Source: Phytoseiulus persimilis
Lineage: Eukaryota > Arthropoda > Arachnida > Mesostigmata > Phytoseiidae
DNA: 64,000 bases
Direction of reading: 5' to 3'
NCBI GenBank assembly: GCA_037576195.1
Contig: CM075101.1
Coordinates: 34,286,001-34,350,000, forward strand
How positions within the stretch are numbered: the first letter of the stretch is position 1; each line of letters starts with the position of its first letter. A program made the position numbers and the translations under genes. Positions 1,897 to 26,778 of the stretch are shown here, in pieces. The notes beneath the pieces are model-generated. The model did no database searches. It worked only from the letters and a program-made list of their open reading frames with translations, and was not told where the DNA came from.

Positions 1897-1959
1897 CTGT
1901 GGTGTGAAAAAATCGCCTCGAACGCTGCTTAGGCCTGATATTCGCCGTTGCAGTTGGAC

Positions 1960-4242: not shown

Positions 4243-5003
4243 AGGGTGATTCCGGGACCAATCTGAATATACTCTCCCGAGTCTGGAGAGGTGATTCCGG
4301 TACGAGTTTGACCATACTTTTCAAAAGCTGGAGGGGTGATTCTAGAACGAATCTGACCATAATTTTCAAAACGTGGAGGGGTGATTCCGGAACCAATCTG
4401 ACCATACTTTTCAAAACGTGGAGGGGTGATTCCAGAACCGATCTGAGCATTACTTTCCAACTCTGGAGGGGTGATTCCGAGACCAATCTGAGCATCACTT
4501 CCCAACTCTGGAGGGGTGATTCCGGGACCAATCTGAGCATTACTTTCCAACTCCGGAGGGGTGATTCCGAGACCAATCTGACTATTGCTTTCCAACTCTG
4601 GAGGGGTGATTCCAAGACCAATCTGAGCATTACTTCCCAACTCTGGAGGGGTGATCCCGGGACCAATCTGAGCATTACTTCCCAACTCTGAAGGGGTGGT
4701 TCCGGGACCAATCTGAGCATTACTTTCCAACTCCGGAGGGGTGATTTCGAGACCAATCTGACCATTACGTTCCAACTCTGGAGGAATGATTCCGGGACCA
4801 ATCTGACCATTACTTTCCAAGTCTGGGGGGGTGATTCCGAGACCAATCTGATCATCACTTCCCAACTCTGGAGGGCTGATTCCGGTACCTATCTGACCAT
4901 TACTTTCCAAGTCTGAGGGGGTGATTCCGAGACCAATCTGACCATTACTTTCCAACTCTGGAGGGCTGATTCCGGGACCAATCTGACCATTATTCTCCAA
5001 GTC
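4243..5003. repeat. 45-bp minisatellite array, ~17 units, copy 1
   Basis: The unit is gtgattccgrgaccaatctg followed by about 25 further bases ending ctctggaggg; period 45 (for example starts at 4,381 and 4,426). Because 45 is divisible by three and units lack stops in several frames, the array is open in three frames: 313 codons on the minus strand (4,059-5,000, repeating NGQIGPGITPPELES), 215 in another minus frame, and 127 on plus. These are by-products of the repeat and not likely a gene. The same unit fills the arms of the foldback element at 13.5-15.5 kb. Confidence 0.9.
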
Positions 5004-5694
5004 TTTTTTTTTTCTTTTTTTTCTCTCTGGCGGGAGGGGAAATCCCTTCGATACAAGAGATTGGACTTCCGTCCGTTACCCTAGTTATGAGGTGTGTCCT
5101 CTAAAACCCCTCCCTCCGCCCTTTTGGTGACTGGGCACTCAAGGCAAGCCCTGTATTGTATTACTTCCGGGTCACCAAGGGCCGTCCGCTTCGTCAGTCA
5201 GCTCTCGTCTCCCTTTTGTTATCTATTCTCCGTTCTGTCTTGCGGCTAGGGTTCCCTACGGGACCTCAGGCGCAGGCATAATTTGCCCGTTTAGTTCTGC
5301 GTTCCTTCGCATGAGCATGTTCTCCTTTTTTTTTTTGAGTATACATCCTATTTTGCGTGAGATTAAATTCCACTTACCTTCATTTTGCAGCATCTCCTGG
5401 ACCAGTTCTGGGACCGTGCCTCCTTCTAAGCCTCGTCTTGGCTGAGACAGCGCTTCGCAAGTGAAGACCGTATGATCCACATCGTCTTCTGCCCCTGAAT
5501 CGCAAAGGATGCACAGTGGGCTAGGAGCTTTCTTGAAGCGATGAAGGTACTTCTGGAAATCTCCGTTTCCTGTGAGGACTTGGGTTGTGTGGCACGTTAG
5601 TTCGCCGAATTCCCGCTTGTACCAGCTTCGCAGATCCGATATGCTATCGTAGGTCGTTCTGCCGGTCAGCGAGCTGCTCCAAGATACTTTCCTA
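5004..5694 (-). mobile_element. 5'-truncated LINE fragment inside the minisatellite (copy 1)
   Basis: Reading on minus from 5,694 gives the C-terminal end of a non-LTR retrotransposon ORF2: SWYKREFGELTCHTTQVLTG, then KYLHRF, then a CCHC-type knuckle CILCDSGAEDDVDHTVFTC and a basic tail ending at a stop at 5,256. About 250 bp of 3' untranslated sequence and an A-rich tail (T runs on plus from 5,004) follow. The arrangement resembles R1/I/Jockey-group elements. The 45-bp repeat lies on both sides, so the LINE inserted into the array. Reverse transcriptase and endonuclease domains are absent, so it is dead. No clear target-site duplication is visible because the target is itself repetitive. Confidence 0.8.
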
Positions 5695-6010
5695 CTCTGG
5701 AGGGGTGATTCCGTGACCAATCTGCCCATACTTTTCCAAGTCTGGAGGGGTGATTCCGGTACCAATCTGACCATTACTTTCCAAGTCTGAGGGATTGATT
5801 CGAGGACCAATCTCTGTTTTCGGCTGAACCTCTCAGCCAGCCCTCAGGAGTGTCCCGGATTCACCTTTCGGTATTGCTTCAGTAACACTCCCTATCGCCT
5901 CGCAAATCCCATTGCGGGCGGTGGGCTTGGGTCTTAAGATGGTTCAGATTTAATTCTGATATAAATTAAATCTCGAGGACCAATCTGACCATACTTTTCA
6001 AAACCATATT
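5695..6010. repeat. Right end of minisatellite, interrupted by a small insert (copy 1)
   Basis: About three further 45-bp units follow the LINE (5,695-5,812), then a 159-bp insert, then a last partial unit up to about 6,010. The orientation is the same as the left part of the array, confirming one array split by two insertions. Confidence 0.75.
5814..5972. mobile_element. 159-bp SINE-like or truncated retroposon insert with 14-bp target duplication
   Basis: The sequence tcgaggaccaatct occurs at 5,800-5,813 and again at 5,973-5,986, flanking 159 bp that are absent from the same place in copy 4 (about 52,575), where a single tcgaggaccaatct is present. The insert ends in an A/T-rich stretch (gatataaattaaatc). 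A long perfect direct duplication plus an A/T-rich end fits target-primed retroposition. No tRNA box pattern could be confirmed. Confidence 0.7.
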
Positions 6011-7340
6011 GCTGACCCAGTGAAGAGAGAGAAAAGTGCTCCGACCGCGCGGAGCGCGGCCGGCTGGTTTCTAATAGCGCTCCAATCAGACAGACCGAGC
6101 GAGCGCAACTCGGCTGTTCCATCCACCTTGAGAGTCCCCTGAACAAAACCGTATCTGTTTGCATATTGTTCTTTGCGGGTTCGTGGTGTATTTTTTCATC
6201 ATGGAATTGTTCGTATCAGGTTGTGAGAAGAAAGAGAAGGGCTCTTTGGTCCGCTGAAGTGTTGAACCTTTCCGTGTTACACGAGCTGAACTCGTCGCGT
6301 TTCGCCGTGACTACAATTGTGGGCGGGGAAACTACTCTGTTGAGGGCGGATCCCAAGCCCCTCTGTTCCGCTGAGGGTAGTTCCCGTCTGGCCGACCTGG
6401 TGCCCTGACCGTAGAGAATAGAAACGCACATGGTACGGAGAAAACACGAGACTCGGAATCGTTTTTCGGTGTTTTGGGGTCCACCCCATTTCTATGGTTT
6501 CGTTGACCGCCAAACCTTTTGAAAGTCGATCTGGTCCGGGGTTAAGGGTCATGTTTTCGCACAAACGCTTGGAAACAGATTTTAGATGATTGATTCGAGA
6601 GAGAAGATATCGAGGATGGGAGCCGAGGTTCCTCCATAAATCGAGTCAATGCGTCCCTCATTTCTTCTCGTATCGTTGTCCGCAAAGGCAGGCATACCGA
6701 ATGGTGACAGAGCAGTTATAATATCGATCGAAATGAAAAATCGGGTGACCCTCCCCTCAACTTATGAACGGAGCGTTCAATTGAGCTGAAGTTCGCACCG
6801 TGCGCGGATCCCATACTCCGGATAATGGCTTCACGGTCAGAGTCCCCTTATTCCATCTTAGGTGACGGAACCACCGGAAGCGGTGAATGAGTCGAAATCT
6901 CGAATGTTCACAATTTGAATTCAAGAATCTTGACTCGGAGTACTGTATTCAAGCTAGGCGAAAATCATAGCTCAATCGGACGTGTCAGCCAGGAAGAAGT
7001 GCAAAAAGGGGGGTGCGCGCATAACTTCGTAACAAATGGAAGCAGTGAGACAAGCTAAGGGGCACCGAAAACGGCGTCATGATCCGGTGAATGACACTCG
7101 ATCAAGGTGTTGATCTCAGCTCAATAGGACGCTCCGTCTGAAAGACGTCGAAAACAGGGATACGCGCTTCATTTTGCGTGTATTACATCTCGGCGTCGTC
7201 AGTCCTCTTCCTGGATAATCAAAATTCTGGGGGCCGTGATCAAAATGTGGTCGAGGGCTTCCGAGCGTAGTGATCACGCTGCTGGTCTTGCTTCTGCGCG
7301 ATCTGATACGAGATTAGTTGATCACACCGGACGAGTTAAA
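6011..7340. other. No gene seen; decayed spacer (copy 1)
   Basis: Only short, overlapping frames (60-95 codons) in both strands with no motif. It is conserved in copies 3 and 4 (36,785-38,000 and 52,620-53,950) because they are recent duplicates, not from visible coding constraint. The first ~550 bp are missing in copy 2. Confidence 0.5.
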
Positions 7341-7347
7341 CTGAAAA

Positions 7348-7860
7348 TTATGAAGAACTAAGACTAGTTAATAGTAGCCATATACGAAGACATCCTGTTT
7401 GCTTTTCCCCGCTGCGCGAATACTGCCAGACTACGAATCTTGGAAACCAGCGAAAAACACGATCAAATAGCAGCGTGCTGCAGCGACAGTTCCACCCGCT
7501 TTCGGGAGCTCGAAGCAGACTACGCCGTCCTGGTCCTAGCAAACACACAGCATCGTCTTCTTCCCGAGCTTGTTCAGCCTCGCAGGCGATGGACCTGATT
7601 CCCCCAGGATGACCCAACCTGCTTTTCGCGCTAGGTTGCCGCACAACTTCCACTCCTCATCGCTGGGCACGATCAAAAGCAGAAAACTTTCTTTCTGTTG
7701 CCGGTAGAGCACTTCTTGGCAATTATTGGTCGAACGGGTGTTTTTCTGCTCTTCTGTTTCTGCTCTTCGACTACGACGCTGCAGCCATTCTCGAGCCTGT
7801 ATTTGCTTACTTCAAACACTAGGCGCTAGGAGCTGCTCGCAAGAACTTCAACTCAGTTCA
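7348..7860 (-). pseudogene. Remnant F, unrecognised protein (copy 1)
   Basis: The minus strand holds pieces of a hydrophilic protein (YRQQKESFLL, PSDEEWKL, ARKAGWVILGESG). These lie in different frames here and are easier to read in copies 2 and 3. The frame after GESG degenerates into an unlikely 101-codon stretch. Copy 4 (53,970-54,420) matches. No family recognised. Confidence 0.3.
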
Positions 7861-8125
7861 CTCTCCATGCGAAGGAAGAAATTTTGCTATACATATTTCG
7901 CGCTCGTTACCCCCGTTCGAATTTCACGGAATCGGAAGAACCTAGATGTAGCCCTGGTGTGTATTCTCGCAACGATCGAATAAGTTCCCAATAAGTTCTG
8001 GGTCGAGCAAGACGTCAACTATTCCTCCGAGGAAAGCGTGATCTGTAGACACGCTCATCTTTCCATGTTTCCGGGCTCCCGCTCTGGTAATGAAACGTTG
8101 CGATTGCAACCTTGGTGGACCAGAG

Positions 8126-8224
8126 ATGGAGTTCGTGGAAGTGGCGCCTCCGTCTTCCCCGCCGGCTGTTTCGGGAGTCTATTACGAACATGAATCCCAC
8201 CCACCAATTCCAATCCCACCTTAG
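8126..8224 (+). other. Short proline-rich frame, unrecognised
   Basis: A 32-codon frame MEFVEVAPPSSPPAVSG... ending HPPIPIPP stop. It is open in copies 1 and 3, reads past this stop in copy 4, and is frame-broken in copy 2. Its composition is that of a protein tail, so it may be the last exon of a decayed gene; too short to call. Confidence 0.2.
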
Positions 8225-8802
8225 TGTAAGCCACTGCAGTTCAGGCTCCTCTTTTCGATTCACAGCGTTAATTTTTCAGTATGTGAGTGCAGGGATCCTC
8301 TCTGAGTACCCATCTCCGCCGTCTCATTTCTTGAGAGGTTCACCTCACGTTAAGGAGTGATTCAGGACGAACTTCCCTCCCACCACAGGCTCGCTCCCAT
8401 CATCAACTTCTGTCCAGATGTATGTACGCGTGCATTCTGCTTGTTTTCAAGGCGGAGTGTGAATTCCACGCGGCATCCGAATCTCGAAGTTGATGAAGTT
8501 CCTGGGTATGTACATTCACACATTTGTTTTTTCGCTCATCGCGGTTTCCTTATCTCAGTTCGAAATATGCAGAATCAAGACAGCCTTGACCTTGCATGGA
8601 AGTTTATTCCAGCGAATGAGGGCGCATAAGGGGGTCGGACGAGTTCTCATTGTTTCGGCTCGGGCGAATCGCGAGCGGGCCCATCGTTTCACATCTCTCA
8701 AGTTCCACTCCGGTGAGCATGAATCGCAGTTTCGCGATCTCTTCCTCCTAGGTGCACGCAGCCAGACGATGATTTGCTCGTGGGCCGATATCAATGGGCG
8801 AC

Positions 8803-9421
8803 CTATTGCACGGCAGCAGTCCATTTTTCCCAAACGCCGACCCCGTGTTCCTCAACATCACGCCGGCCGTCAATGGAAACCACTCTACCGTCACCGCTCA
8901 ACACTATCAGAGTTGGTATGCCTCTTATTCCAAAGTGCTCGGAGATGCGGCTGGGAAAAAAGGATTTTCGGTATCAAGCCACTGATTTCTGAACAATTTC
9001 GCCCTCTTTGAGACCACGCTTGATGATTTCAAAGACCCTGACTTTTTGAGGGAAGTCCCGAACTCCGAAGCAAACCAGTCGCCGTGGCTCTCCTTCATGT
9101 ACGACAGCATATTCTCCTCGCTCCTGTCAGATGACAGGAAAATCACTTCAATTTTCTTCCCGGCTTTCTTCAAATCGTTGTAAACTTCCGCCAGTCTCGG
9201 GGTGAAATTCCTAGAATCAATGAAATGCAAATCAGGAACTACCCGGATCGACATGCAACACTCCGATAGCTATCCGGGAGCTGCAGGTCCACTCACCGAC
9301 ACGGTGGACACCAGTGCGCAGACAAGTATAAGAGAACAATGTTGTTCTCCGCGAATATTTCAGAAGCGGCTTTCTTCTTCTTGTCAGCTTTGATGAGCTG
9401 ACTTCCAGTGATGATCTCCAT
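8803..9421 (-). pseudogene. Nucleoredoxin-like Nrx-B (copy 1), one frameshift
   Basis: Second nucleoredoxin-like gene, on minus. Exon 1 is 9,421-9,297 (MEIITGSQLIK...WCPPC), the intron 9,296-9,211 (GTGAGT...CTAG, 86 bp, the same phase-2 position as Nrx-A) and exon 2 9,210-8,803. Exon 2 keeps RNFTPRLAEVYNDLKKAG, EVIFLSSDRSEEN and HGDWFASEF. Reading then shifts near 8,955, inside ENPFF/SRISEHFG, before the cis-proline segment IRGIPTLIVLSGDGR and the end EKWTAAVQ. Coding length is 533 nt, so the break is +2 or -1. Both catalytic cysteines remain. A sequence error cannot be excluded, but copy 3 shows the same change. Confidence 0.75.
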
Positions 9422-9469
9422 GTTCAACTGTGAGTGCGAATATCAGCTTTGAGATACGTTCGGAGCGGA

Positions 9470-9820
9470 TTTTTCTGAGCTAGTTCGCCACTCTTCGGAG
9501 GTGGATCCGAAATCTCAAAACAGGATCAGCCTCAGAATATCGCCGCATTGAGGCAAGGAGTGTCCTAATTGTGTCATAAAGATCAAGCGACTCAAACATG
9601 TCTACATGAAAGCTGTTCGTGCGCGGTGTATCATAGAAAAATTAAACCGAGGACCTTGAGAGTTCTTCCGGAAAAGTGGAACAACTGAAGACCTGATGAA
9701 TGCCGTCGAGAGAGAAATCGGAAGTGGAAAGAGTTCTCGTTTCGTCATGGATTCTCGAAATCAGAATCGGTTGCTCGTGGATTTCGATCTTCTCCATCGT
9801 TTCGGTCTCGATCCGCTTAT
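9470..9820 (-). pseudogene. Family E-like gene upstream of Nrx-B (copy 1)
   Basis: The same place as the 105-codon open frame of copy 3 (40,159-40,476), but interrupted here by a TAA where copy 3 reads TCA (VSFFYDTPRT region). It lies just upstream of Nrx-B and in its direction, as E does for Nrx-A. Similarity to E is weak: DTIRTLLASMRRYSEADPVL against NTLDTLRRELSECRTPIL of the flank copy. Confidence 0.35.
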
Positions 9821-10109
9821 ATTTTGAACGTCCCAGCTATCAGATGATGGAGCAGCAAATGACTGAGATGTGAGAAACCCTCAACGAACTTCAGATGGAA
9901 AAGCCGGAACAAAAAAAAACAGGAACTCAAGGGTTGGGTTTCGACTCGAGGATTCATGCCAAAATGTTCCTATCATGGTCTGCCAAAACTTCCCCGGATT
10001 ATTCTCCGCACGTATTGTGAGGAATGCTTTTGGTCCTGAAGAAGGATTGTCAAATCGAACAGCGTCATCTCGGAACGTTCCGAAGGTGACGGGCAACAAA
10101 AGACGCATG

Positions 10110-10700
10110 TTTGGACTCAGGGTACAAACTCGTCCTCGATTCAGCAAGCCTTGAATGCCGTCCTCAGCTCGCCGCTTTGGAACGACTCCTCTCACAGAAT
10201 CATGCACACAGATGGTCGCAGAAGCAGGACCTTATTTCTGTAGAATGTCTCTCTGGGTGGCTGCAACACTCCTTCTATTCCTCGAGTTCCCAGAGCGGCT
10301 TCTCGGGCCCTCAGCCGCCGTTTCGTAGGATGACCACCACCGCGGCCACCACTTGTCTCACAGTCAAATTGAAGCCACCTGAAAAGCTGTCCGGAAGATC
10401 AGCGCATCATTGAGCGAATTGATATCCGGAATTTGCTCCAACGAGAGTGAGCCAACATTCGAGACAAAGAACAAGGATCTCATTTCACCGTCCTCGCTCA
10501 CATTGAGCTCAACGATCCTTCTGTCGATGGGATATGCGCTTGAACACGGCTTCTCAGGCATCCCATCATCAGCTACTCGTGTGTCGTCATGGGTGACGAA
10601 ACCAAATCCCGGTCACATCATCCATGATCTCATCCCGTTTTGCGTAGGACTCCAGCGTAACGTTCACTCACATACACGTCATTAGCGCCCTGCTACTGTG
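10110..10700 (-). pseudogene. hnRNP A/B-like RRM gene remnant (copy 1, right cassette)
   Basis: Minus-strand pieces align in order with a two-RRM protein. The first RRM keeps GFGFVTHDDTRVADDGM (RNP1-like), followed by IDRRIVELNVSEDGEMRSLF, resembling the VDGRVVEPKRAVS linker, and FVSNVG, like the RNP2 of a second RRM. Further on lie RNKVLLLRP and RGVVPKRRAED, as in the end of RRM2 (DKIVIQKxH...EVRKA). Several frame changes separate the pieces. It is divergent to the E/Nrx-C cassette, repeating the arrangement at the unit's left end. The family is inferred from motifs alone. Confidence 0.5.
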
Positions 10701-11110
10701 ATTGCACCCGAGTTCTCAGGAAAGGGTTGTGGGAGAAATTCGGGTTTAGAAAGCTCAGGGATCGCGAATGCGGAATACCCACGAGACGCTGTCGTCCATC
10801 GTAGCGCTTTCCGATTCAGGGGACTAATCCGGTATTCAAGCGCTTGCCGCCATGCTAGAGTCAGAATCGCTGACCTCTTGATACACAGCGACGCGAGCCC
10901 CTGAAGTGTCGCCCGAGACTGCCAGCGGCGAGTGAACTGTGAAACAGAGGTCCTCCGTTTTGTGTGATGGGCTCCTCGCCTATTTTTGGACATACCGCTC
11001 TTTGATACTGTGAAAGTTGTAAGGAAAGACGAGCCATTTCGGTCGTTGGGCAATCTCACGAGATCCGCAAAAACGGCGGAACAGCGAAGAGTCAAGTGGC
11101 ATATGGATCG
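10698..11110 (+). pseudogene. Family E remnant upstream of Nrx-C (copy 1)
   Basis: Reads IANAEYPRDAVVHR (compare IAKTEYQRDADFHG of the left cassette), LDTQRREPLKCR and, in another frame, PRLFLDIPLFDTVKVVRKDE. These three blocks, in the same order as in the left cassette, show it is the same family. Frame changes between blocks indicate decay. Copy 2 keeps a slightly better N-terminal part (EFSGNELWEKFGF). Confidence 0.4.
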
Positions 11111-11698
11111 GTGCTGCAATACTCTGAAAGAGCCAGAAAGATACTAATCTAAGAAGGAAACTTTTCTATCGAAGTTATCTCGTTCCGATGCTCCAAAGCC
11201 CTCCGACCGGTTTGATCGAAACACGCACCGGTCCTATAAGCGGCACGCGTTGCTGGTCCCGATTGTCGCCATGTGTCAAGTAGTCTAATCTATTCCTTTT
11301 CAATATCAGTCGCAAGTCCGAGGACCATCTTGTCTTACCTCAGAGTTTCGGAAAGATGAGCCAAAGTTCCCACGTCCGCCGGTTTCGCACTAATTTAAGA
11401 ATCTGGGAACACATCGAGAGGCAGAGTTATGGGCTTGGTCACGCTGCCTCCCCGATTCCTATTCTGCGACAAGAGCCGCTTCCCAGGTAAGGGCTCCCGG
11501 TGATCACAGATCTCGCATATTGCGAGATCAGGCGGTTGCTGTAGGGATTGGCCCAGCTTCAGATATATATAGAAAGGGTGAAGAGGATCATCCGGGGCAC
11601 GGAATACGATGAGAAGATTTTCCATCTCGACATCTCAAATGAAAAAAAAAAAGGCTCCGAACGCTGCTCGATGTCGATATTCGTCGTTGCAGCTGGAC

Positions 11699-12067
11699 AT
11701 GGAGCTTATCATTGGAAGTCACCCGTTCGAGACTAATGGGACGAAAAAAGACGCTTCCGAGATATTCGCGGAGAACGACATCGTTATCTTATACCGTTCT
11801 GCGCATTGGTGCGAACCAAGTCGGTGAGGGCTCCAGCAGCCGTGAGAGCAGCTCGCAACTTTCGAAGCATTCCATAACCGGAACGAGTGGTTTATGATCC
11901 GCCTATCATCAATTCCAGGCGTTTCGCTCCGATACTGAGGGGGTGTACAATGATTTGGAGACAGCTGGAAAGAAAATCAAGGTGCTTTTCCTGTCCTCTG
12001 ATAGGACCGAGAGAGAAACGATAGCGTACATGAGGGAGCTGCACGGCGACTGGTTTGCTTTCGAGTT
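11699..12067 (+). pseudogene. Nucleoredoxin-like Nrx-C (copy 1), truncated
   Basis: Exon 1 is 11,699-11,823 (MELIIGSHPF...), with donor gtgagg at 11,824. Exon 2 starts after ATCAATTCCAG near 11,920 (RFAPIL...). The redox motif is WCEPS instead of WCPPC, so the resolving cysteine is lost. Exon 2 has one base fewer than Nrx-A just after RFAPIL, shifting frame, and homology ends after HGDWFAFEF. The C-terminal third with the cis-proline loop is gone. It is clearly a dead or strongly altered paralogue, and the same in copy 3. Confidence 0.7.
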
Positions 12068-12239
12068 CGCAAAACGAGTTCACGTGCTTAGATCGGCTCA
12101 ACTGAGTCATACGCTCTCTGCATGCTCCCGCCCTAATTCCCCTCTGATCTCTAGTTTCATCCGATCGCGGTTCAGAAGTACGTTCTCGCGGGACCTCGAG
12201 CCATGATTCTCGTTGCTCAAGTGTTTTGGACGAATCAAG

Positions 12240-12690
12240 TTCAGCATGACGTTATCCGTCATCTCTTGACGCGCATTTCGCTGCGGTCCCGTTTCTTGGA
12301 CTTTCCGTTCGCGAGTTTCTGAACCTCCACCGACGCATATTCATCGTCAAGTGACGTTTCGTGAGAGAGCAGGTGATACAACTCTAGAATCATCCTGTCA
12401 GTATGTTCGTTGACGTCTCCAATCGGTATTCTCTGACTGTTGCTGAGGGAGAAACGGTCACGATAAACGTTCGTCTGGATCCAGGAATCGTATTTCCTGT
12501 GTTCCCACGAATAATTTGAAGTAGGTTACCGAATTCCAAGCATTCTGAGCTGAGTCTTCGATGACGACTCTCGGAACTGCGTTCTCCACAACACAAAGCA
12601 TTTCTTTGCCGTAATGGTACCTCTTGAGCGCACGTCATAAAGACGTATCCATCTAAACTATCGGAACGATTCTAATTCGATAATCGTTAT
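12240..12690 (-). pseudogene. Gene G remnant (copy 1)
   Basis: Minus-strand homologue of the 210-codon frame of copy 2 (27,889-28,521). It is broken here, with the readable piece around WEHRKYDSWI and the tail LSHETSLDDEY. Not recognised with confidence; see the copy 2 entry. Confidence 0.35.
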
Positions 12691-12699
12691 CCCCTTTTG

Positions 12700-13470
12700 A
12701 ACAAGATACACCACTCGCTAGATTTTCAAAACGGTTGGAACGAGCTCAGACGGGCCATAACCGCGAGGAAAAGGAGGGCGACGCGGTGCAGGAGAAGAGC
12801 GCGGTTATCATGAGCAGATTCGTGCGATTGGGGAACAAGAGGTATTGAATCAAATGAATTGAAAGTCCACGAGCATTCGCTACATCTGATGATGACTTCG
12901 CACTGCTACCAGACTTTTCCCGAGAGGCAGTCAATGGAGAGTGCATGATCGAAATCGCGGCAGATAACTTCGTAGCGTCTCGCGACATCGCATTCCTGGG
13001 GAAACCGAACGAAGACTCTTCCGACAACAAGTCTGCTGCTGAGCCAGAGATCGACGGTGGGGGAGCTCCAGTTTTCCGGAGCTTGGAGGACGCAGGTATT
13101 TGGCCCGCGGAAATCTCGCATAATCTCAGGTATCCTTCTGGTGCGACAGGGATCGGCCGCCGGTCAACATTTGAGTTGTGATTTCACCGCCTGTGATGTC
13201 CGCCCGAGGCAGTCGATGGCGGGCGGCGAGAGGATGCTCTCCTTGAAGTAGTTTCATCGAATCTCCAACGTCTATTCCGAAACCGGATTTTCTAAATGGA
13301 AGTTGAACCCGAGAGTGCGCGGACAGGAGCGCGGAGGGCGATACAACGAGAATCTTCGGAAGTGGAAAACATTAGAGATCCCTTCCTACCAGCTAGCGAC
13401 GATCGACAAACTCCACCGAGCAACCATCGATAGCAGAGCGAGAAAGCGGAAAGAAATAAAGCATCGACAT
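12700..13470. other. No gene called; overlapping short frames (copy 1)
   Basis: Frames of 60-95 codons on both strands (for example minus 12,746-13,030 and 12,906-13,121; plus 12,945-13,181). None has a motif and none is favoured by comparison with copy 3, which is almost identical. Most of it is deleted in copy 2, where the equivalent of 13,055-13,884 is missing. Confidence 0.4.
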
Positions 13471-13474
13471 CGTC

Positions 13475-15517
13475 AAAGGGTCTCGGCACTTCCGGCCTTG
13501 GGTCGGGGATTCGAATGAGATATATTGTGTCGGAAACCCCATCTCAAGAGAACACTTTCTGTCCAGTCGGCGGGCTCCTAGCTGCCTTGTTTTTTTTCAT
13601 AGCATGAAGCATCTTCTGGACCGATGAGAACCGAGCGAGACTTGGGAACCTAAAATGCTCATATCTCCGTTCAGGAGTTCAGAGCTCATGAAGTGGGTTT
13701 TGGAAAGCCCGTGAATCCAGCTTTCCGATGCTCCCTCCAGAGTTTTTCCACGATCAATTTGAATACCTTAAAAATGAACAACTTCAAAGTGAATGTTTCT
13801 AGCCCACTTCCTGGAGGTTGACCACTTTCTAGTTTGTGTCATATTGCGCTCACTTTCAGTGCGAGCACAGTGCGATAAACAGACAGAAAAAATATTTGGG
13901 GGTCAGGGTAAAAAAACTAAGAAAACTGTCGATGGTCACCCTGAATTCATCGAATTTCATGCATAAGCTCCAGAATATTTGGTGGTGGAAGGCCCCGAGC
14001 CAGAGAAGATCATATTCTGAGCCGTGAAACACACGGAATCAGCCGCCCAGACCACCAAAAGTTTGGTCGGATCGATACCGGAACTACCCGCGCAGACCCC
14101 CAACAGCATGGTCAGATTGGCCCCGGATCACCCCTCCGGCTTTTGAGGAGTATGGTCAGACTGGTTCCTGAATCACCCCTCCAGCTTTTAAGAAGTAATG
14201 GCCAGATTGGTCTCGGAGTCACCTCTCCAGTGTTGGGAAGTAATGGTCAGATGGGTTCCGGAATCACCTCTCCAGCTTTCAAAAAGTTTGGTCAGATTTG
14301 CCCCGGAATCACCCCTCCGGCTTTTGGGGAGTATGGTCAGACTGGTTCCTGAATCACCCCTCCAGCTTTTAAAAAGTAATGGTCAGAATGATCTCGGAAC
14401 CACCCCTCTAGACTTGGAAAGTAATGGTCAGATTGGTCCCGGAATCACCCTTTCGGCTTTTGAAGAGATCGTTGAATACATGAAACGGCGCAACGGTCTA
14501 CAGAACACCCTCGGAGCGAAGGTTGAAGCCGGAGGGCTGGGGACTAGGAACTCACGACTACAACAGATGAAGGCCACCAACCTAACCGACTTCCCGGGCC
14601 TGATGCGTGAGGATTTACCCCTTTTGACTCCAGGTCCGTTCCAACTCAAGCTGGCATGCTCGGCATGATTCCGAGACCAATCTGACCGTACTTTTCCATG
14701 CCTGGAAGGGTGATTCCGAGACCAATCTGACTATTACTCTCCAAGTCTGGAGGGGTGATTCCGGAACCAGTCTGACCATACTTCTCAAAAGCTGGAGGAG
14801 TGATTCCAGAACCAGGCTGACCATGCTTTTCAAAAGCTGGAGGGGTGATTCCGGGGCAAATATGACCATGCTTTTGGGGGTCTGGGCGGGCGATTCCGGG
14901 ATCGATCTGACCAAACTTTTGGGGACCTGGGCGGCTGATTCCGTGTGTTCCACGGCTCAGAATATGATCTTCTCTGGCACAGGTCCTCCCACCATCAAAT
15001 ATCCTGGAGTTTATGCATGAAATTCGATGAATTCAGGATGACTAACGACAGTTTTTTAGTTTTTCAACCCTGACCCCCCAAATATTTTTTCGATCTGTTT
15101 ATCGCCTTGCTCGCACTGAAGGGGAGCGTAATATGACACAAACTAGGAAGTGGTCAACCTCCAGGAAGTGGGTTAGAAACATTCACTTTGGAGTTGGTCA
15201 TTTTGAAGGTATACAAATTGATCGTGGAAAAACTCTGAAGGACGCATCGGAAGGCTGGATTCACGAGCTTTCCAAAACCCACTTTATGAGCTCTCAACTC
15301 TTTCAGATAAAGGAGATTTGAGCATTTTAAGCTTCCAAATCTCGCTAGGTTCTCATCGGTCCAAAAGATGTTTCATGCTATAAAAAAAAACCGAAGCAGC
15401 TAGGAGCCCGCCGACCGGACAGAAAGTGTTCTCTTGGGATGGGGTATGCGACAAATTGTATCTCATTTGAGTCCCCGACCCAAGGCCAAAAGTGCCCTGG
15501 AACTGCCGAGACCCTTT
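13475..15517. mobile_element. Foldback-type DNA element with minisatellite-bearing inverted arms (copy 1)
   Basis: The sequence from aaagggtctcggca at 13,475 reappears as its reverse complement ending at 15,517 (ccgagaccctttc). Arms are about 990 bp (13,475-14,462) and 850 bp (14,668-15,517). From outside in, each holds a tract with a G/C-rich end, a middle segment (tagtttgtgtcatat / atgacacaaacta), a T/A-rich run beside aaatatttggggg, and then 45-bp repeats in opposite orientations. A 205-bp unique core lies between them. This is the layout of Drosophila Foldback and Galileo-type elements: long inverted termini made partly of tandem repeats. No obvious target duplication borders it and no full transposase is present, so it is non-autonomous. 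Confidence 0.75.
14463..14667 (+). other. Coding-like core of the foldback element (copy 1)
   Basis: About 65 codons open in one frame (EEIVEYMKRRNGLQN, LTDFPGL, REDLPLLTPGPFQLKLACSA, then stop). The frame runs on from the left minisatellite, giving a 156-codon open frame at 14,198-14,668. The piece EDLPLLTPGPFQLKLA resembles the motif DLxxLTxGxYQLKLAxSY found in SWIM-type zinc-finger transposase-like proteins of arthropods; this is from memory and tentative. It could be the last scrap of a transposase or captured host sequence. Confidence 0.4.
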
Positions 15518-15529
15518 CTCGCGAAGAAG

Positions 15530-15961
15530 AACCGGGATTTCCGAGGTCGTCGAGAATATGAAGACTTCGCAGCTAACCACCGAGGCGATTTCTGGGAGCT
15601 GGTGGAGCTCATGTCCCGTGTCGTACGAGCTTCCCATGAAACTGAATTCGGGGAGCAATCAATCTGGACCGTCTTGCTTGTAGCCGCAGATCCAGAGCGA
15701 GTTCAGAAACATCCTCGGGGACCAAGGATGTCTCAATAATATCACAGATGTCCGAGAGGTAATTCTCATCAGAGGGAGTTGCGGAGCGACATAAGCCGAT
15801 CACTGAAAATAATTGTGGAGGACATGGAGACGAGATTCGAGGAGCTTCAGGAAATCAGGGTAGCAGATTTTCTCCACTCCTCCCGTGCAAGCTGTTCGAC
15901 CCGTCTCCCAGCTGCGATTCTGTCAATGTTGCTGGAGAGATCGACCCCGTCGGATTCCCGA
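15530..15961 (-). other. Unrecognised protein-like frames at unit right end
   Basis: The minus strand reads PSDENYLSDICDIIETSL, then VSELALDLRLQARR (15,609-15,803), and in another frame REFDGVDLSSNIDRIAAG. Similar stretches occur at 46,290-46,484. Composition suggests a decayed leucine-rich or F-box-type protein, but no repeat pattern is firm. The longer version in copy 2 is described at 30,686-31,565. Confidence 0.25.
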
Positions 15962-17189
15962 TTGAGAGGCAACGTTCAATCAGTTTTGTTTCTGCCTCCG
16001 ATCAGGGAACGACCCTCATGAGAGCTGGGCCCTTGGAGCTGCTCAAAGTCATCGATCTATGCAGCCTGAATATCTCAGTCCCCAATGTTGTGATAATGCT
16101 CCGGCTTTTTCTAACGCTCGGCATGAGTGTTGCCGCATGCTAGCGGAATCTCATCAAGAACTCTCTATCGAGCAATCCGTCACTAATGAGTCAGATATCA
16201 CAAATCACAGGTCCTGGGCATCGTGGAGCCTCGCTACGCCACTGCTGAGCACCCCTTCTGCTCTTTCGGGCCGTTTTTCGGCGTGATTCTTGGGTTCCGA
16301 GGATCACACTCGGATGTCAGCCGGATCTCGGGATCACGCTCTGAATGCAACGGTATTCCCTGACGAAAAATACGGAGGGCGCGATGCCGAGATCCCGTAA
16401 GAATCGCTTCTCCATACTAGAATGAGCTGGAGAAATTTTAAGAACAATCCGTTACCCTGGACGGAAATCGCCCATCTCTCCGCTCCTGACCCCCGCAATC
16501 CTGGGGCTCATTCCTGAATCTAGGAAGAACGCCGCCCTCCGTCTCATATGTTTGTCCAACGCTATGGCAGGAGCTGTTACAAATATCATGAACTGTACGC
16601 TTCCAGATGAGCTGAAATGAAGGACCCATCATCATTCTGGTGGATTGTAAAGATACAATGACACTTTGATGATAACAGGATACCTCCGTACCTGCGATGA
16701 ATTCTAAGAACCAACCTGGGTAACCGATGGAGATTGGAGACAGTATGAGATGAAGGCTTTGGTCTCTGGGCCGACGCAAAGGGAGATGGTCATACGAATC
16801 ACCCGAAGCTAGAAAACTGTCTCAACGGCGGCCTGCCACGTTCTCGTTTGGACCCCTCCCTGGTCGCCCCTGGTAGGAACCTCACGGAGATCTGGTTTGA
16901 GGGGAAGAACCGAGTCCCATAACTCGGACGAGGAGAGTCTCTTGTAGTTTGAATGAAGTGTGGTATGGAACTGGGAATTCGAACGTAGCAGAGGGGTGGT
17001 GGAGGGATGATAGATGTTTTCAAATCTGCTTGAATATCGAGGCTCTTGTTTTCCCAATACGCAATGGGTTATAAACTCGACAATTCTTCCGGAACAGATT
17101 TGAGCATTTTCCGGAGCTGCTTCTAATATCCTCGGCTTCGGTTCCCGTCGAACCTTACAGACGAGTTGATATCACCTGGAGATCTTTTC

Positions 17190-17550
17190 TGAGAAACACA
17201 TCATTGGGCTGTGTCATACCAAGAACTCGCTCCGAAGAGAACGAATCAGGACTCGGAAGAGAGAACTGGAATGAACTATCCAGATCCTCGCTCACCTCGG
17301 GCTCATCGTTCCTACTGTCGAGGACAAATGCGAATAGATATGAGTTCTCACGGACAAATGCGAATAGATATGAGTTCTCACGGACATTGCGTCATCGACT
17401 ATCTTTGAGTCGACATAGGTGACGGAACCGATTCCCCGTGAGGTTTTAGTATCCGAGTCCATCATGAACACAGAGTGCATGATCTCATCTCATTTGCACT
17501 TATACTCAAGCAGAGCGTTCACCAGCTCCGCGAGGGCCCATGCCACACGG
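17190..17550 (-). pseudogene. hnRNP A/B-like RRM gene remnant (copy 2, left cassette)
   Basis: As in copy 1, with SRGIGSVTYV and DSKIVDDAM. It differs by a perfect 30-bp tandem duplication at 17,324-17,383 that adds ten codons in frame. The same duplication is in copy 4 but not in copies 1 or 3. Confidence 0.5.
17324..17383. repeat. 30-bp tandem duplication
   Basis: Two perfect adjacent copies of a 30-base unit beginning acaaatgcgaatagatatga. Copy 4 has the same doubling at 48,006-48,065; copies 1 and 3 have one unit. This makes it a marker that left halves 2 and 4 share a more recent ancestor. Confidence 0.9.
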
Positions 17551-17570
17551 CATATTCGTCCAGAATCGTA

Positions 17571-17886
17571 ATCACACTCGAATTTTCGGGAGAGTAGTTG
17601 TGCGATAATCCGGGCTTTCGAAGGTTTCTGGATCGCAAAGACAGAATATCAACGTGACGCGGACTTCCATGGTAGAGTTCTCTGGGTAAGGGGAACTTTG
17701 CAGCATTCAAAAGCTCGCCGTCGTGGCCAAAGGGATCCCAACACTCTCGATACAGAGCGACGTGAGATTTTGAAGTGCCGCGCCGAGACCGACAGAGGTG
17801 AGGAACTCGTGGAGGAGACCCTCCCGATTTCGTCCGAGGCGCTCCTTACCCGTACTTATACGTTCCGCCATTTGATACTGTGGTAA
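17571..17886 (+). pseudogene. Family E remnant upstream of Nrx-A (copy 2)
   Basis: Nearly identical to copy 1 over ADFHGRVLW, TLDTERREILKCR and ELVEETLPISSEA, with the same frame change before the C-terminal PYLYVPPFDTVVT block. It adds no new break. Confidence 0.42.
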
Positions 17887-17949
17887 CTGTGGTGTGAAAA
17901 AATCGCCTCGAACGCTGCTTAGGCCTGATATTCGCCGTTGCAGTTGGAC

Positions 17950-18590
17950 ATGGAGATCATCATTGGAAGTCATCTGATGAAGGTTGATAGGACGGAGAAA
18001 CCCGCATCCGAAATATTCGCGGAGAACGACATCGTGCTCCTATATTTGTCTGCGCATTGGTGTCCACCGTGCCAGTGAGTGATACAGCAGTCGTAAGCCG
18101 TGGCCTATAACAATCGAAGCCTTCTATATTGGTCCGGGTAGTTCATAACTCGCCTGTCTCCGATTCCAGGCGTTTCACTCCAATACTGACGGACGTATAC
18201 AATGATTTGAAGAAAGCCGGAAAAAAAATTGAAGTGCTTTTCATGTCCTCTGATAAGACCGAGGAAAAAATGATGGCGTACATGGAGGAGATGCACGGCG
18301 ACTGGTTCGCTTTCCAGTTCGGGACTCCTCTCAAGAAGTCAGAGTCCTTGGAATTATCAAGCAATGCCAAATGGAAACTAAAACTGTTGGAGAATCACGG
18401 ACTCGATGCTAAGAATATTTTTTCCAGACAAATCTTCGACTTCTTCGGACTGAAACAGATTCCACGTCTGATCGTGTTGACCGGTGGTGGCAAAGTCATC
18501 TCCACTGATAGCCGTCGTGAGGTCGAGGAGCATGGTGTCCACGTTTGGGAGCATTGGACTTCTGCGGTCCAACAGGTATCCGACCAGTAA
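17950..18590 (+). CDS. Nucleoredoxin-like protein Nrx-A (copy 2), two exons
   Basis: Exon 1 is 17,950-18,074, the intron 18,075-18,169 (95 bp, GT-AG) and exon 2 18,170-18,590. It encodes 181 residues with WCPPC, the HGDWFAFQF block and the cis-proline segment KQIPRLIVL, and differs from copy 1 by about one residue (Lys for Arg in SNAKWKLK). With copies 1 and 4 it forms the set of intact genes. Near identity at silent as well as coding positions points to recent duplication or conversion, so selection cannot be judged from it. Confidence 0.88.
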
Positions 18591-18927
18591 CGCCTCATCT
18601 GAAAATTGTCTGCTTGCGCTTGTCTATCTGCGCAGGAGATTGCGAGAAACCCAATTCGACTCCCTCGGCGAAAATCCGAGAACTAGAAGAGATGAGCCCA
18701 TCGACGGAAAACACTGACCTCGAAGAAACGGTCGGAGTTGTTTTCGAGCCATAACAATTTGAATCTAATCGACAATCGCCGGAATAAACATCAGTACTAG
18801 ATCAAGGCTGTATCGATTCTGCGAATCTCGATGGAACCTGGCGAATGCATCGATGAAAGTTACATAATGTCTCCATTTTCCCTATGAGAACCCTTGGATG
18901 AAGTGTGAAGTCGTAAAGCGAATACTC

Positions 18928-19912
18928 ACAGGATGGCAGTTTTTGGTCTGGAATTTTTGAGCTCCATATTGTTCCGGCCATAACTTTGTCAATTCTTGGA
19001 TTCGTTCCAAAAATTCAAAAAGTGATCGATGGAGCATTCCGAAGGGGTCATTCCGATACCCAAGTTTATGGTTTGATTGATCCAAATTATGATTTCGCTC
19101 ACAAAGTGAATATGATGAGAATCGCGGCCGGGAGATTTTTTTCCCAAGGTTCTCCTCAATGTTATAGGGGAAACTCCGAATTTCATCGGATCGCATTCGA
19201 GGCGAAAAGAGTGAGCCGGTCCTTCGCCGGAAAACCGATTGAAGAGAGTCCGTTTCCTCGAAAAATGGCAACCGATCGTATCCACCCCTTTTTCCAGGCT
19301 CTCCCCATTGTCTAATTTCGCGTTTAGACCTCCTTCCTTTTTCCGTTTTCCTCGCGTTTCCTCTCGTAGCTCCTCCACGAGATGGAATTGAAGGTATCTT
19401 AATGGTGAAAATGACTAAGGAATCGGTGAATCATTCGAATACAGAGCTGCCAGGTCGATCCGAGGATTTCTCATTTTCACCCAAAATAGTCCTCATTCAG
19501 TTTTCCGCCCTCGGTCACCAATCACCCTTGACATCAAAGGGATTTTTGATACGATCGGTTGCTATTTTTCGAGGAAACGAGATAACCTCAATCGGATTTC
19601 TGGCGAATGACCGAGTTCCTTCGGCGCGTCGAGTGCGGTCCCCACGAGTCCGATCCGATGAGATTTGACATTTCCCCCAAACCTTCTAGGAGGACCTCGG
19701 AAAAGACACGTCATATTCAGAATCATTCCCTGGCCGTGATCCTCATCATGGCCGATTCCTAATGGCGAAAGTCGAGCGAGATTCGCGAAATGACTGCCTG
19801 GGAATCCTCTTCCGATCGCTCTTTGATTTTTGAGGTAATTTCAAGAATTGACAAAATTATGGCTGAAACGAGATGGGGCTCGAAAATTCCCGACTCAAAG
19901 ATGCCACCCTGT
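18928..19912. repeat. Inverted repeat (hairpin), copy 2
   Basis: Arms 18,928-19,280 and 19,551-19,912, homologous to the hairpin at 2,938-3,924, with a few substitutions and a two-base shorter loop. Confidence 0.68.
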
Positions 19913-20231
19913 ATTCCCGCTGTGCAGGTCGAAGTCTACGTGATCGTCGGAACCGACTCATCCCGCCTCTACATTCTTCGAACCTAGTTCTTCGCCGATC
20001 TGTAGTTTTAACCGATTGCACTCCAACATTACGTTTTCGCACAAGCCTCAAGTCTTGATTTCGTTGCACCCGTATTTCGGACGAATAGAATCCAACGTAA
20101 CTTTGTCCGTCATCCTCTGACCGCGCGTTTGGCTGCTCCCCTTTCTCTTTTCAATCCTTACTATATATAATCGGCTTGGTTTGTCAGTTTGTAAGTTTGT
20201 CAGTTTGTCCGCACTTTTTCTGGAAGACATG

Positions 20232-20992
20232 AGGGTGATTCCGGGACCAATCTGAATATACTCTCCCGAGTCTGGAGAGGTGATTCCGGTACGAGTTTGA
20301 CCATACTTTTCAAAAGCTGGAGGGGTGATTCTAGAACGAATCTGACCATAATTTTCAAAACGTGGAGGGGTGATTCCGGAGCCAATCTGACCATACTTTT
20401 CAAAACGTGGAGGGGTGATTCCAGAACCGATCTGAGCATTACTTTCCAACTCTGGAGGGGTGATTCCGAGACCAATCTGAGCATCACTTCCCAACTCTGG
20501 AGGGGTGATTCCGGGACCAATCTGAGCATTACTTTCCAACTCCGGAGGGGTGATTCCGAGACCAATCTGACTATTGCTTTCCAACTCTGGAGGGGTGATT
20601 CCAAGACCAATCTGAGCATTACTTCCCAACTCTGGAGGGGTGATCCCGGGACCAATCTGAGCATTACTTCCCAACTCTGAAGGGGTGGTTCCGGGACCAA
20701 TCTGAGCATTACTTTCCAACTCCGGAGGGGTGATTTCGAGACCAATCTGACCATTACGTTCCAACTCTGGAGGAATGATTCCGGGACCAATCTGACCATT
20801 ACTTTCCAAGTCTGGGGGGGTGATTCCGAGACCAATCTGATCATCACTTCCCAACTCTGGAGGGCTGATTCCGGGACCTATCTGACCATTACTTTCCAAG
20901 TCTGAGGGGGTGATTCCGAGACCAATCTGACCATTACTTTCCAACTCTGGAGGGCTGATTCCGGGACCAATCTGACCATTATTCTCCAAGTC
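20232..20992. repeat. 45-bp minisatellite array, ~17 units, copy 2
   Basis: Same length and nearly the same unit variants in the same order as copy 1, so the array was copied with the whole unit and not by local slippage. The minus-strand 313-codon frame is kept. Confidence 0.9.
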
Positions 20993-21683
20993 TTTTTTTT
21001 TTCTTTTTTTTCTCTCTGGCGGGAGGGGAAATCCCTTCGATACAAGAGATTGGACTTCCGTCCGTTACCCTAGTTATGAGGTGTGTCCTCTAAAACCCCT
21101 CCCTCCGCCCTTTTGGTGACTGGGCACTCAAGGCAAGCCCTGTATTGTATTACTTCCGGGTCACCAAGGGCCGTCCGCTTCGTCAGTCAGCTCTCGTCTC
21201 CCTTTTGTTATCTATTCTCCGTTCTGTCTTGCGGCTAGGGTTCCCTACGGGACCTCAGGCGCAGGCATAATTTGCCCGTTTAGTTCTGCGTTCCTTCGCA
21301 TGAGCATGTTCTCCTTTTTTTTTTTGAGTATACATCCTATTTTGCGTGAGATTAAATTCCACTTACCTTCATTTTGCAGCATCTCCTGGACCAGTTCTGG
21401 GACCGTGCCTCCTTCTAAGCCTCGTCTTGGCTGAGACAGCGCTTCGCAAGTGAAGACCGTATGATCCACATCGTCTTCTGCCCCTGAATCGCAAAGGATG
21501 CACAGTGGGCTAGGAGCTTTCTTGAAGCGATGAAGGTACTTCTGGAAATCTCCGTGTCCTGTGAGGACTTGGGTTGTGTGGCACGTTAGTTCACCGAATT
21601 CCCGCTTGTACCAGCTTCGCAGATCCGATATGCTATCGTAGGTCGTTCTGCCGGTCAGCGAGCTGCTCCAAGATACTTTCCTA
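20993..21683 (-). mobile_element. 5'-truncated LINE fragment (copy 2)
   Basis: Same insertion as 5,004-5,694, with the same tail and 5' breakpoint, including the CCHC-type knuckle CILCDSGAEDDVDHTVFTC. It is therefore one insertion that predates the unit duplication, not a second event. Only one more 45-bp unit remains on its right (to about 21,728) before the deletion junction. Confidence 0.8.
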
Positions 21684-21728
21684 CTCTGGAGGGGTGATTC
21701 CGTGACCAATCTGCCCATACTTTTCCAA

Positions 21729-22740
21729 CTTGGAAAACCGATTTTAGATGATTGATTCGAGAGAGAAGATATCGAGGATGGGAGCCGAGGTTCCTCCATA
21801 AATCGAGTCAATGCGTCCCTCATTTCTTCTCGTTCGTTGTCCGCAAAGGCAGGCATACCGAATGGTGACAGAGCAGTTATAATATCGATCGAAATGAAAA
21901 ATCGGGTGACCCTCCCTCAACTTAGGAACGGAGCGTTCAATTGAGCTGAATTCGCACCGTGCGCGGTATCCCATACATCCGGATAATGGCTTCACGGTCA
22001 GAGTCCCTTATTCCATCTTAGGTGACGGAACCACCGGAAGCGGTGAATGAGTCGAAATCTCGAATGTTCACAATTTGAATTCAAGAATCTTGACCTCGGA
22101 GTACTGTATTCAAGCTAGGCGAAAAATCATAGCTCAAATCGGGACGTGTCAGCCAGGAAGAAAGTGCAAAAAGGGGGGTGCGTCGCATAACTTCGTAACA
22201 AATGGAAGCAGTGAGCCAAGCTAAGGGCACCGAAAACGGCAACTCATGATCCGGGTCTGAATGACACAGACAAGGTGTTGATCTCAGCTCAATAGGACGC
22301 TCCCGTCTGAAGACGTCGAAAAAAAGGGATAGCCTCATTTTGCGTGAAACCGACATCCGGCGTCGTCAGTCCTCTTCCTGGATGAAAATTCTGGGGGCCG
22401 TGATCAAAATGTGGTTCTTCTCGATCGAGGGCTTTTTACGAGCGTAAGTGTCACGCTGCTGGTTTGCTTCTGCGCGATCTGATACGAGATTAGTTGATCA
22501 CACCGGACACGTAAACTTTCTGCAAGTTTCACTGCGAAAACTTATGAAGAAACTAAGACTAGTTAATAGTAGCCATATACGAAGGAACATCCTGTTCTTT
22601 TCCCGCTGCGCGAATATTGCCAGACTACGAATCTTGGAAACCAGCGAAAAACACGATCAAATAGCAGCGTGCTGCAGCGACATTTTCCACCCGCTTTCGG
22701 ATTCGAGCTTTCGAAGCAGACTACGCCGTCCTGGTCCTAG
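21729..22740. other. No gene seen; diverged spacer (copy 2)
   Basis: Begins at the deletion junction where the minisatellite is joined directly to sequence equivalent to 6,568 of copy 1. Compared with copy 1 there are many 1-4 bp length differences. Frames seen in either strand have no motif. Confidence 0.45.
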
Positions 22741-22746
22741 CAAAAG

Positions 22747-23010
22747 TCACACAGCATCGTCTTCTTCCCGAGCTTGGTCAGCCTCGCAGGCGATGGTACC
22801 TGATTCCCCTAGGATGACCCAACCTGCTTTTCGCGCTTCCTGGTTGCGCCACAACTTCCACTCCTCATCGCTGGGCAAGACTTCAAAAAGCAGAAAACTT
22901 TCTTTCTGTTGCCGGTACGAGCACTGTCTTGGCAATCATTGGTCGAACGGGTGTTTTTTCTGCTCTTTCTGTTTCTGCTCTTCGACTACGACGCTGCAGC
23001 CATTCTCGGG
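22747..23010 (-). pseudogene. Remnant F, unrecognised protein (copy 2)
   Basis: Here the minus strand is continuous across YRQQKESFLLFEVLPSDEEW, KLWRNQEARKAGWVILGESG and ACEADQAREEDDAV, then stops. Charged, soluble protein composition and agreement with pieces in copies 1 and 3 suggest a former gene. The long plus-strand frame at 22,448-23,281 (277 codons) is most likely its antisense shadow. Confidence 0.35.
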
Positions 23011-24049
23011 CCTGTATTTTGACTTTACAACACTAGGCGCTAGGAGCTGCTCGCAAGAACTTCAACTCAGTTCACTACTCCCATGCGAAGTATTACAAGA
23101 AATTTTGCTATACATATTTCGCGCTCGTTACTCCCCGTGTCGAATTAACACTTTGATCGGAAGGAACACTAGAGAGTACCCGGTGTGGATTCTCGCAATT
23201 TTCGGAATCGATAAGTTCCAATACCGTTCTGGGGCGAGCAAGACGTCAACTATCCTCCTCGAGGAAAGCGTGAATCTGTAGACACGCTTCTTTCCAGTTT
23301 CCGGGCTCCTCGCTGGTAATGACCGTTGACGTTGGCCGATTGCAACATGGGTGGACCAGAGATGGAGTTCGTGGACAGTTGGCGCCTCCGTCTTCCCCGC
23401 CGGCTGTTTAGGGAGTCTTTACGAACATGAATCCCACCCACCAATTCCAATCCCACCTTAGTGGTAAGCCACTGCAGTTGACAGGCTCCTCTTTTCGATT
23501 CACAGCGTTATTTTTTCAGTATGTGAGTGCAGGGATCATCTCTGAGTACCATCTCCGCCGTCGTCTCATTTCTGAGAGGTTCACCTCACGTTAAGGAGTG
23601 ATTCAGGACGAACTTCCCTCCCACCACAGGCTCGCTCCCATCATCAACTTCTGTCCAGATGTATGTAAGCCGTGCATTCTGCTTGTTTTCAAGGCGGAGT
23701 GTGAATTCCACGCGGCATCCGAATCTCGAAGTTGATGAAGTTCCTGGGTATGTACATTCACACATTTGTTTTTCGCTCATCGCGGTTCCTTATCCAGTTC
23801 GAAATATGCAGAATCAAGACAGCCTTGACCTTGCATGGAAGTTTATTCCAGCGAATGAGGGCGCATAAGGGGGTCGGACGAGTTAACTCATTGTTTCGGC
23901 TCGGGCGAATCGCGAGCGGGCCCATCGTGATTCACATTCTCAATGTTCCACTCCGGTGAGCATGAACTCGCGTTTTTTTTGCGATCTCTTCCTCCTAGGT
24001 GCACGCAGCCAGACGATGATTTGCTCGTGAGCCGATATCAATGGGCGAC

Positions 24050-24680
24050 CTATTGCACGGCAGCAGTCCATTTTTCCCCAAACGCCGACCCCGTGTTCCT
24101 CAACATCACGCCGGCCGTCAATGGAAACCACTCTACCGTCACCGCTCAACACTATCAGAGTCCTGGTAGCCTCTTATTCCAAAGTGCTCGGAGATGCGGC
24201 TGGGAAAAAAGGATTTTTCGACCGGTATCAAGCCACTGATTTATGAACACATTTCGCCTCTCTTTGAGACCACGCTGATGATTTCAAAGACCCTGACTTT
24301 TTGAGAGGGAAGTCCCGAACTCCGAAGCAAACCAGTCGCCGTGGCTCTCCTTCATGTACGACAGCATATTCTCCTCGGTCGGTCAGATGACAGGAAAATC
24401 ACTTCAATTTTCTTCCCGGCTTTCTTCAAATCGTTGTAAACTTCCGCAGTCTCGGGGTGAAATTCCTTAGAATCAATGAAATGCAAATCAGGAACTACCG
24501 GATCGACATGCACACTCCGATAGCTATCCGGGAGCTGCAGGTCCACTCACCGGACACGGTGGACACCAGTGCGCAGGACAAGTATAAGAGAACAATGTTG
24601 TTCTCCGCGAATATTTCAGAAGCGGCTTTCCTTCTTCTTGTGACAGCTTTGATGAGCTGACTTCCAGTGATGATCTCCAT
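24050..24680 (-). pseudogene. Nucleoredoxin-like Nrx-B (copy 2), heavily broken
   Basis: ATG at 24,680 (MEIITGSQLIK), then a shift before KAASEIFAENNIVLLYLS, and another that changes the redox motif region. EVYNDLKKAGKKIEVIFLSS is still readable, but RSEENM is broken, and the C-terminal LSGDGRVVSIDGRRDVEEHG lies in yet another frame. At least four indels make it the most decayed Nrx-B. Copies 1, 3 and 4 do not share most of these breaks. Confidence 0.7.
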
Positions 24681-25129
24681 GTTCAACTGTGAGTGCGAAT
24701 ATCAGCTTTGAGATACGTTCGGAGCGGATTTTTCTGAGCTAGTTCGCCACTCTTCGGAGGTGGATCCGAAATCTCAAAACAGGATCAGCCTCAGAATATC
24801 GCCGCATTGAGGCAAGGAGTGTTCATCCTAATTGACGCGGGGTCAGGCTCGAAGATCAGCGACTCAAACATGTCTACATGAAAGCTCTCATTTCGTGCGC
24901 GTTGTCATCATAGAAAAATTGTGGTAAACCGAGACCTTGAGAGTTATCTTCCGGAAAAGTGGAACAAACTGAAGACCTGATGAATGGCCAGTCGAGAGAG
25001 AAATCATTTCTTCTCGAAGTGTGGAAAGAGTTCTCCTTTCGTCATGGATTCTCGATTCAGAATCGGTTGCTCGTGGATTTCGATCTTCTCCATCGTTTCG
25101 GTCTCCAACAAAAGACGCATGTTTGGACT

Positions 25130-26776: not shown

Positions 26777-26778
26777 TC

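Follow-up and report, generated by a model that had tools for sequence, protein, structure and literature searches.

Foldback elements seemingly arose in several unrelated superfamilies; Galileo has been linked to inversions, Tetris to the birth of satellite DNA. The described systems closest to the locus reported here are these two, together with Tm1 of root-knot nematodes and the Spy (PHIS) transposons. In the sections of the published accounts drawn on here, the arm repeats of Galileo bind the Galileo transposase (PMC3573991, PMC3688188), and Spy transposons insert within AAATTT without duplicating it (PMC4482050, PMC11304231). The present locus resembles each of the four in part; it is probably a degenerate, non-autonomous foldback-type DNA transposon that has been carried passively by duplication of the unit in which it lies, and we put it forward as a candidate of this kind.

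Units of 15-16 kb, repeated in tandem, fill bases 1 to about 56191 of the window (the whole stretch of 64,000 nucleotides that was analysed), and units 1, 2 and 3 carry the element at one equivalent position (copies E1, E2 and E3; Table 1). Over the three segments compared, E1 and E3 share 99.0-99.6% identity. Within the window there are no copies beyond these three, and a search for other AAAGG...CCTTT pairs, 150-6000 bp apart and complementary at 12 or more of 14 positions, returned only E1 and E3; the terminal pattern has one match in IMG/VR (L001), where about one is expected by chance on a rough estimate. The three copies descend from one insertion by way of unit duplication, and the distinct family that the sequence-only reading proposed would be represented by this one event. 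The sequence-only reading of this DNA had proposed that the element may have helped the 15-kb unit to rearrange, of which we find no evidence: the sole array border in the window (56191, equivalent to unit position 9586) lies 3.9 kb from the element, and the left border falls outside the window.

Table 1. Coordinates of the element copies, their parts, the related minisatellite array and the units of the tandem array.
Feature	Position	Strand	Remarks
Element copy E1, whole	13475-15517	.	inverted arms (963 bits) plus termini
Left terminal inverted repeat, E1	13475-13493	+	18/19 complementary to right end
Left arm, outer non-satellite segment, E1	13475-14034	+	within the window matches only the three element copies
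Left arm, 45-bp minisatellite, E1	14057-14450	-	includes 181-bp duplication 14109-14449
Core with 67-codon open frame, E1	14465-14665	+	no relatives in the collections searched
Right arm, 45-bp minisatellite, E1	14666-14920	+	tandem repeat position and orientation
Right arm, outer non-satellite segment, E1	14940-15517	-	within the window matches only the three element copies
Right terminal inverted repeat, E1	15499-15517	-	18/19 complementary to left end
Element copy E2	28656-30442	.	left end deleted, left satellite longer, right arm partly missing
Arm fragment, equivalent of 15111-15223 (113 bp)	30560-30702	+	displaced to beyond E2's right end
Element copy E3	44155-46198	.	near-identical to E1
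Free 45-bp-family array, unit 1	4244-6003	+	broken by two insertions; outside the element
Unit 1 of tandem array	1-15961		
Unit 2 of tandem array	15962-31766		
Unit 3 of tandem array	31767-46642		
Partial unit 4 of tandem array	46643-56191		stops before the element position

The arms of E1 measure ~990 bp on the left and ~850 bp on the right, around a core of ~200 bp (about 14468-14665). Aligned with the inverted 14666-15496, 13485-14311 is 86.2% identical across 835 columns and scores 963 bits, whereas the best inverted match per window ranged from 0 to 33.7 bits when 10 random windows of equal length were generated under a Markov-1 model. The outer 19 nt are complementary at 18 of 19 positions, a match no better than the identity of the arms predicts (p = 0.27). 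The 45-bp repeats run in opposite orientations, minus-strand in the left arm and plus-strand in the right, and the extra length of the left arm can be accounted for by the 181-bp duplication, which corresponds to four monomers (90% matches). The inner 1023 nt, taken as single-stranded DNA, are predicted to form one long hairpin. E1 thus has two characters of the foldback class, long inverted arms and tandem repeats of opposite orientation within them. The inverted arms, matching ends, opposed 45-bp repeats and small open core reported in the sequence-only reading are all present as it described them, and its view of the architecture as foldback-like is borne out by the long arms, the termini, the opposed repeats and the arm score relative to the random windows.

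That reading would fail if the arms were a single local inverted duplication of the minisatellite at 4.2-6.0 kb. A search of the window with the arm segments (word size 7, E up to 0.01) argues otherwise: the outer 560-580 bp match only the three element copies, and because this non-satellite sequence, ~560 bp in each arm, is unmatched in the nearby array, the arms are not a simple copy of it. Related 45-bp arrays are found in units 1, 2 and 4, and some sub-types are common to arm monomers and free-array monomers. A coding role for the 45-bp repeat (15 codons) finds no support: among 14 monomers of the unit 1 array that are in register, variation at the three codon phases is about equal (entropy sums 4.91, 5.88 and 5.80); a search with a 29-base satellite pattern gave no matches.

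Both interruptions of the free array in unit 1 can be described. The segment at 5800-5974 holds a ~160-bp insertion, SINE-like in size and flanked by a 14-bp duplication, TCGAGGACCAATCT, and the same site is uninterrupted in unit 4 (52571-52605), giving a clean filled/empty pair. The other (5005-5690, minus strand) is the 3′ end of a non-LTR retrotransposon, apparently inserted into the array, with a T-run at 5005 and a weak zf-RVT match that recurs in the corresponding ORFs in units 2 and 4. Unit 3 is without the whole 4168-6069 stretch, array included (junction 36781-36782), which reflects either a deletion or the state before insertion.

The openness of the 67-codon frame in the core says little by itself, because a 100-codon frame on the opposite strand spans the same stretch. 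The core has no match in Pfam or in PDB at E up to 10, and its pattern was matched by 10 stretches in IMG/VR and 110 in GTDB genomes, with no relative confirmed in either; the P-type or SWIM-finger origin that had been suggested for it therefore finds no support in these four collections, and there is no eukaryote protein collection among them. AlphaFold gives a poor model of the core (mean pLDDT 59.6, pTM 0.24), and between E1 and E2 there are five nonsynonymous and three synonymous changes, over 146 and 49 sites respectively (p = 0.42). The core may be a transposase remnant, and it may resemble the stretch that precedes the SWIM finger in arthropod transposon proteins, which agrees with the hint in the sequence-only reading.

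The ends of E1 read AAA/GGGTCTCGGCA...TGCCGAGACCC/TTT, and the complementarity around GGGTCTCGGCA halts just past the AAA and TTT. Published foldback families have target-site duplications of 7-10 bp, and E1 lacks one: with small shifts allowed no duplication was found at its ends, the best candidate agreeing at 4 of 9 positions. AAA and TTT flanks with no duplication are the arrangement of Spy, and if the element is Spy-like the outer AAA (at the 13475-13493 end) and TTT (at the 15499-15517 end) may be target sequence; because both complete copies come from one insertion this signature is a single datum, drawn from one independent event, and by our own estimate such flanks would occur by chance about 1 time in 64. 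Pfam was searched in six-frame scans of the window, with scans of single ORFs in their place at 1-5000, 20001-27349 and 31603-56000. The six-frame scans covered E1 and E2 and found no transposase domain in either: no THAP domain or P-type transposase (though an autonomous copy may exist elsewhere), no MULE domain and no Spy-type DDE (DDE_Tnp_4-like) domain. The ~9-bp duplication of Mutator elements is also absent from E1.

The history of the arms was followed by comparing E1 with E2 in four segments, using gap-free columns only (170, 146, 129 and 272). Same-side differences between the two copies number 14/170, 9/146, 17/129 and 38/272, as against left-right differences within E1 of 19/170, 23/146, 16/129 and 47/272, which suggests that the split of the arms predates the split of the units in three of the four segments; the third leans marginally the other way. 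Between E1 and E2 the three non-satellite arm segments carry substitutions at 40 of 445 columns and the core at 8 of 195 (p = 0.03); adding the satellite segment brings the arms to 78 of 717 (p = 0.003). When a single kilobase picked from the same units serves as background (10-11 kb of unit 1; 33/905), the arms appear to change faster (p = 1e-4) and the core at the same rate (p = 0.68). Substitution in the core is at the ordinary level for the unit, but a faster rate in the arms is not established, because unit kilobases 7 and 11 differ as much as the arms do (88/985 and 88/991).

Copy 2 had been described as expanded and shuffled, and this proves accurate: it combines a lost left end, a longer satellite, a gap in the right arm and a displaced arm fragment. 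In unit 1 terms the sequence jumps from about 13054 to 13886, so that the left end is absent; the left satellite is ~726 bp (28978-29703) compared with 394 bp in E1, and about 270-330 bp of the right arm are missing beyond the equivalent of 14991. The displaced fragment scores 92 locally, where 60 shuffles reached no more than 36, and was the one positive among ten flank-and-strand tests made on five stretches (two of them overlapping). Its join sits in a short stretch common to flank and arm (ACTGAA..GGGGAGC), as would be expected of microhomology-guided switching near E2. From about 6.6 kb onward unit 2 shows numerous one-base indels relative to unit 1, and sequencing or assembly error may therefore contribute to the structure of E2. 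Unit 2 is ~99% identical to unit 1 over its first 5.7 kb and 75-99% identical, with many small indels, over the rest; such a mosaic points to recent conversion or to sequence of uneven quality.

Elsewhere in unit 1, 2938-3924 forms a second, older inverted repeat, with arms of ~370 nt, 65% identity over 386 columns and ends ACAGG..TGGCA; its counterparts are at 18928-19912, 35586-36538 and 49614-50561, and it is possibly another foldback-like relic. The array has also multiplied a thioredoxin-like (Thioredoxin_8) gene family, presumably nucleoredoxin-type, whose pieces lie at 1906-2587, 8801-9475 (minus strand) and 11646-12330 with counterparts in other units; each of units 1-3 holds three related pieces, about 71-77% mutually identical and one of them inverted, and the matches fall in several frames. 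An I29/Peptidase_C1 cathepsin gene, read in two frames, lies beyond the array; among the 60 listed of 125 chains matched in a search with the cathepsin, most are cathepsins K, S and L. One mariner-type match and the zf-RVT matches in the window are weak and fall below the curated cut-offs, and Rfam and tRNA scans of the window returned nothing. The gene content points to a eukaryote.

Composite arms, unique on the outside and repeated on the inside, are a mark of foldback elements and so argue for a foldback transposon, as do the sharp bounds, the arm sequence foreign to the array, the older arm split in three of four segments, and the AAA and TTT flanks without duplication. Against a transposon stand the absence of a target-site duplication, of a transposase domain and of a copy at an unrelated site within the window, the unexceptional match of the termini, and the one segment in which the left-right difference is no larger than that between E1 and E2. 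A plausible course of events would begin with an ancestral cut-and-paste element with long inverted ends, from which the transposase gene disappeared and which then depended for its movement on transposase from another source. Its inner 45-bp repeats would have lengthened via slippage or unequal exchange, and may have acted as extra transposase sites, a role we infer because the arm repeats of Galileo bind its transposase. A single insertion at the array position would later have multiplied only through duplication of the 15-16 kb unit. Given a transposon, rather under half of our belief goes to a Spy-like (PHIS) element, one that entered between AAA and TTT and left the target unduplicated; the remainder goes to some other superfamily in which the duplication was lost or the arms recombined. 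The fuller proposal, that this is a foldback of the Spy/PHIS lineage whose ends grew to about 0.9-1 kb by taking up the 45-bp minisatellite, is tentative and taken as a whole rather doubtful. Recombination between two diverged copies of one family would leave unmatched flanks and arms drawn from different sub-families; we consider this narrower form of the transposon reading distinctly unlikely. Galileo offers a precedent in 12 such D. mojavensis copies, whose arms are unusually divergent and whose 7-bp flanks do not match, as given in the parts of the accounts used here (PMC3573991, PMC3688188), and the arms of E1 differ by 14% including gaps, with no duplication seen; however, age alone could give this divergence, and no second family member is known here. 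Such a site would mark an old chromosomal rearrangement.

The same missing duplication and transposase domain, and the lack of a further copy within the window, would also suit an origin that involves no transposon, namely an old inverted duplication that arose in situ, at a break, through template switching or foldback repair, with the minisatellite included by chance. This is unlikely but deserves real weight, the more so because the 18/19 termini are conserved no better than arm identity predicts; the 45-bp family is also present in the element's own unit, template switching occurred near copy 2, and each unit has its second, older inverted repeat. Composite arms with sharp ends are nevertheless the layout of a foldback element, and the source of the arms is absent elsewhere in the window. 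It is very improbable that the locus is instead one in which the arms would be transcribed as a long hairpin giving small RNAs against the 45-bp family. The inner 971 nt, taken as RNA, do fold at -571 kcal/mol compared with a mean of -332 (sd 8) in 20 shuffles, and the related arrays in units 1, 2 and 4 could be its targets, but such folding is expected of any long inverted repeat and much of the arms has been lost in copy 2.

The sequence of E1 is new as far as searched, and its structural kind is already known; the one unusual lead that it offers is its Spy-like insertion signature, free of duplication. Should the element belong to the Spy lineage, the foldback layout would have arisen independently once more and the missing target duplication would be explained, and the usual duplication test would miss such relics; should it prove to be a defunct copy from a known superfamily, or simply a locally made inverted duplication, it would be of catalogue interest.

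The comparisons that follow rest on those portions of the published accounts that were consulted. Like E1, Tetris of Drosophila virilis is a non-autonomous foldback with tandem repeats in its terminal inverted repeats (TIRs) and a repeat family that also occurs free, but it has 220-bp repeats, duplications of 8-10 bp and many dispersed copies (PMC4079207), whereas E1 has 45-bp repeats, no duplication and one known insertion. Galileo, of the P superfamily, shares with E1 long, internally repetitive TIRs of variable length, some copies that consist only of arms around a spacer, and recombinant copies without matching duplications; it differs in its THAP/P-type transposase and in the 7-bp duplications of most copies, E1 having no P-type sequence (PMC3573991, PMC3688188). 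Tm1 (Mutator/Foldback) resembles E1 in its composite TIRs with variable tandem-repeat number and in the non-identity of the two TIRs of one element (93.15% on average), and is unlike it in having ~14-bp repeats, duplications of 8-10 bp in 45 of 53 complete copies and a Phantom-type MULE transposase, none of which was seen in E1 (PMC3169594). Spy elements, of 1165-5910 bp with one transposase ORF, are unlike E1, where the DDE domain was not found, and the portions of their descriptions used here do not mention tandem-repeat arms; they are like it in the AAA and TTT just outside their ends, in inserting without a duplication, and in TIRs that can be long, 5-691 bp being reported (PMC4482050, PMC11304231).
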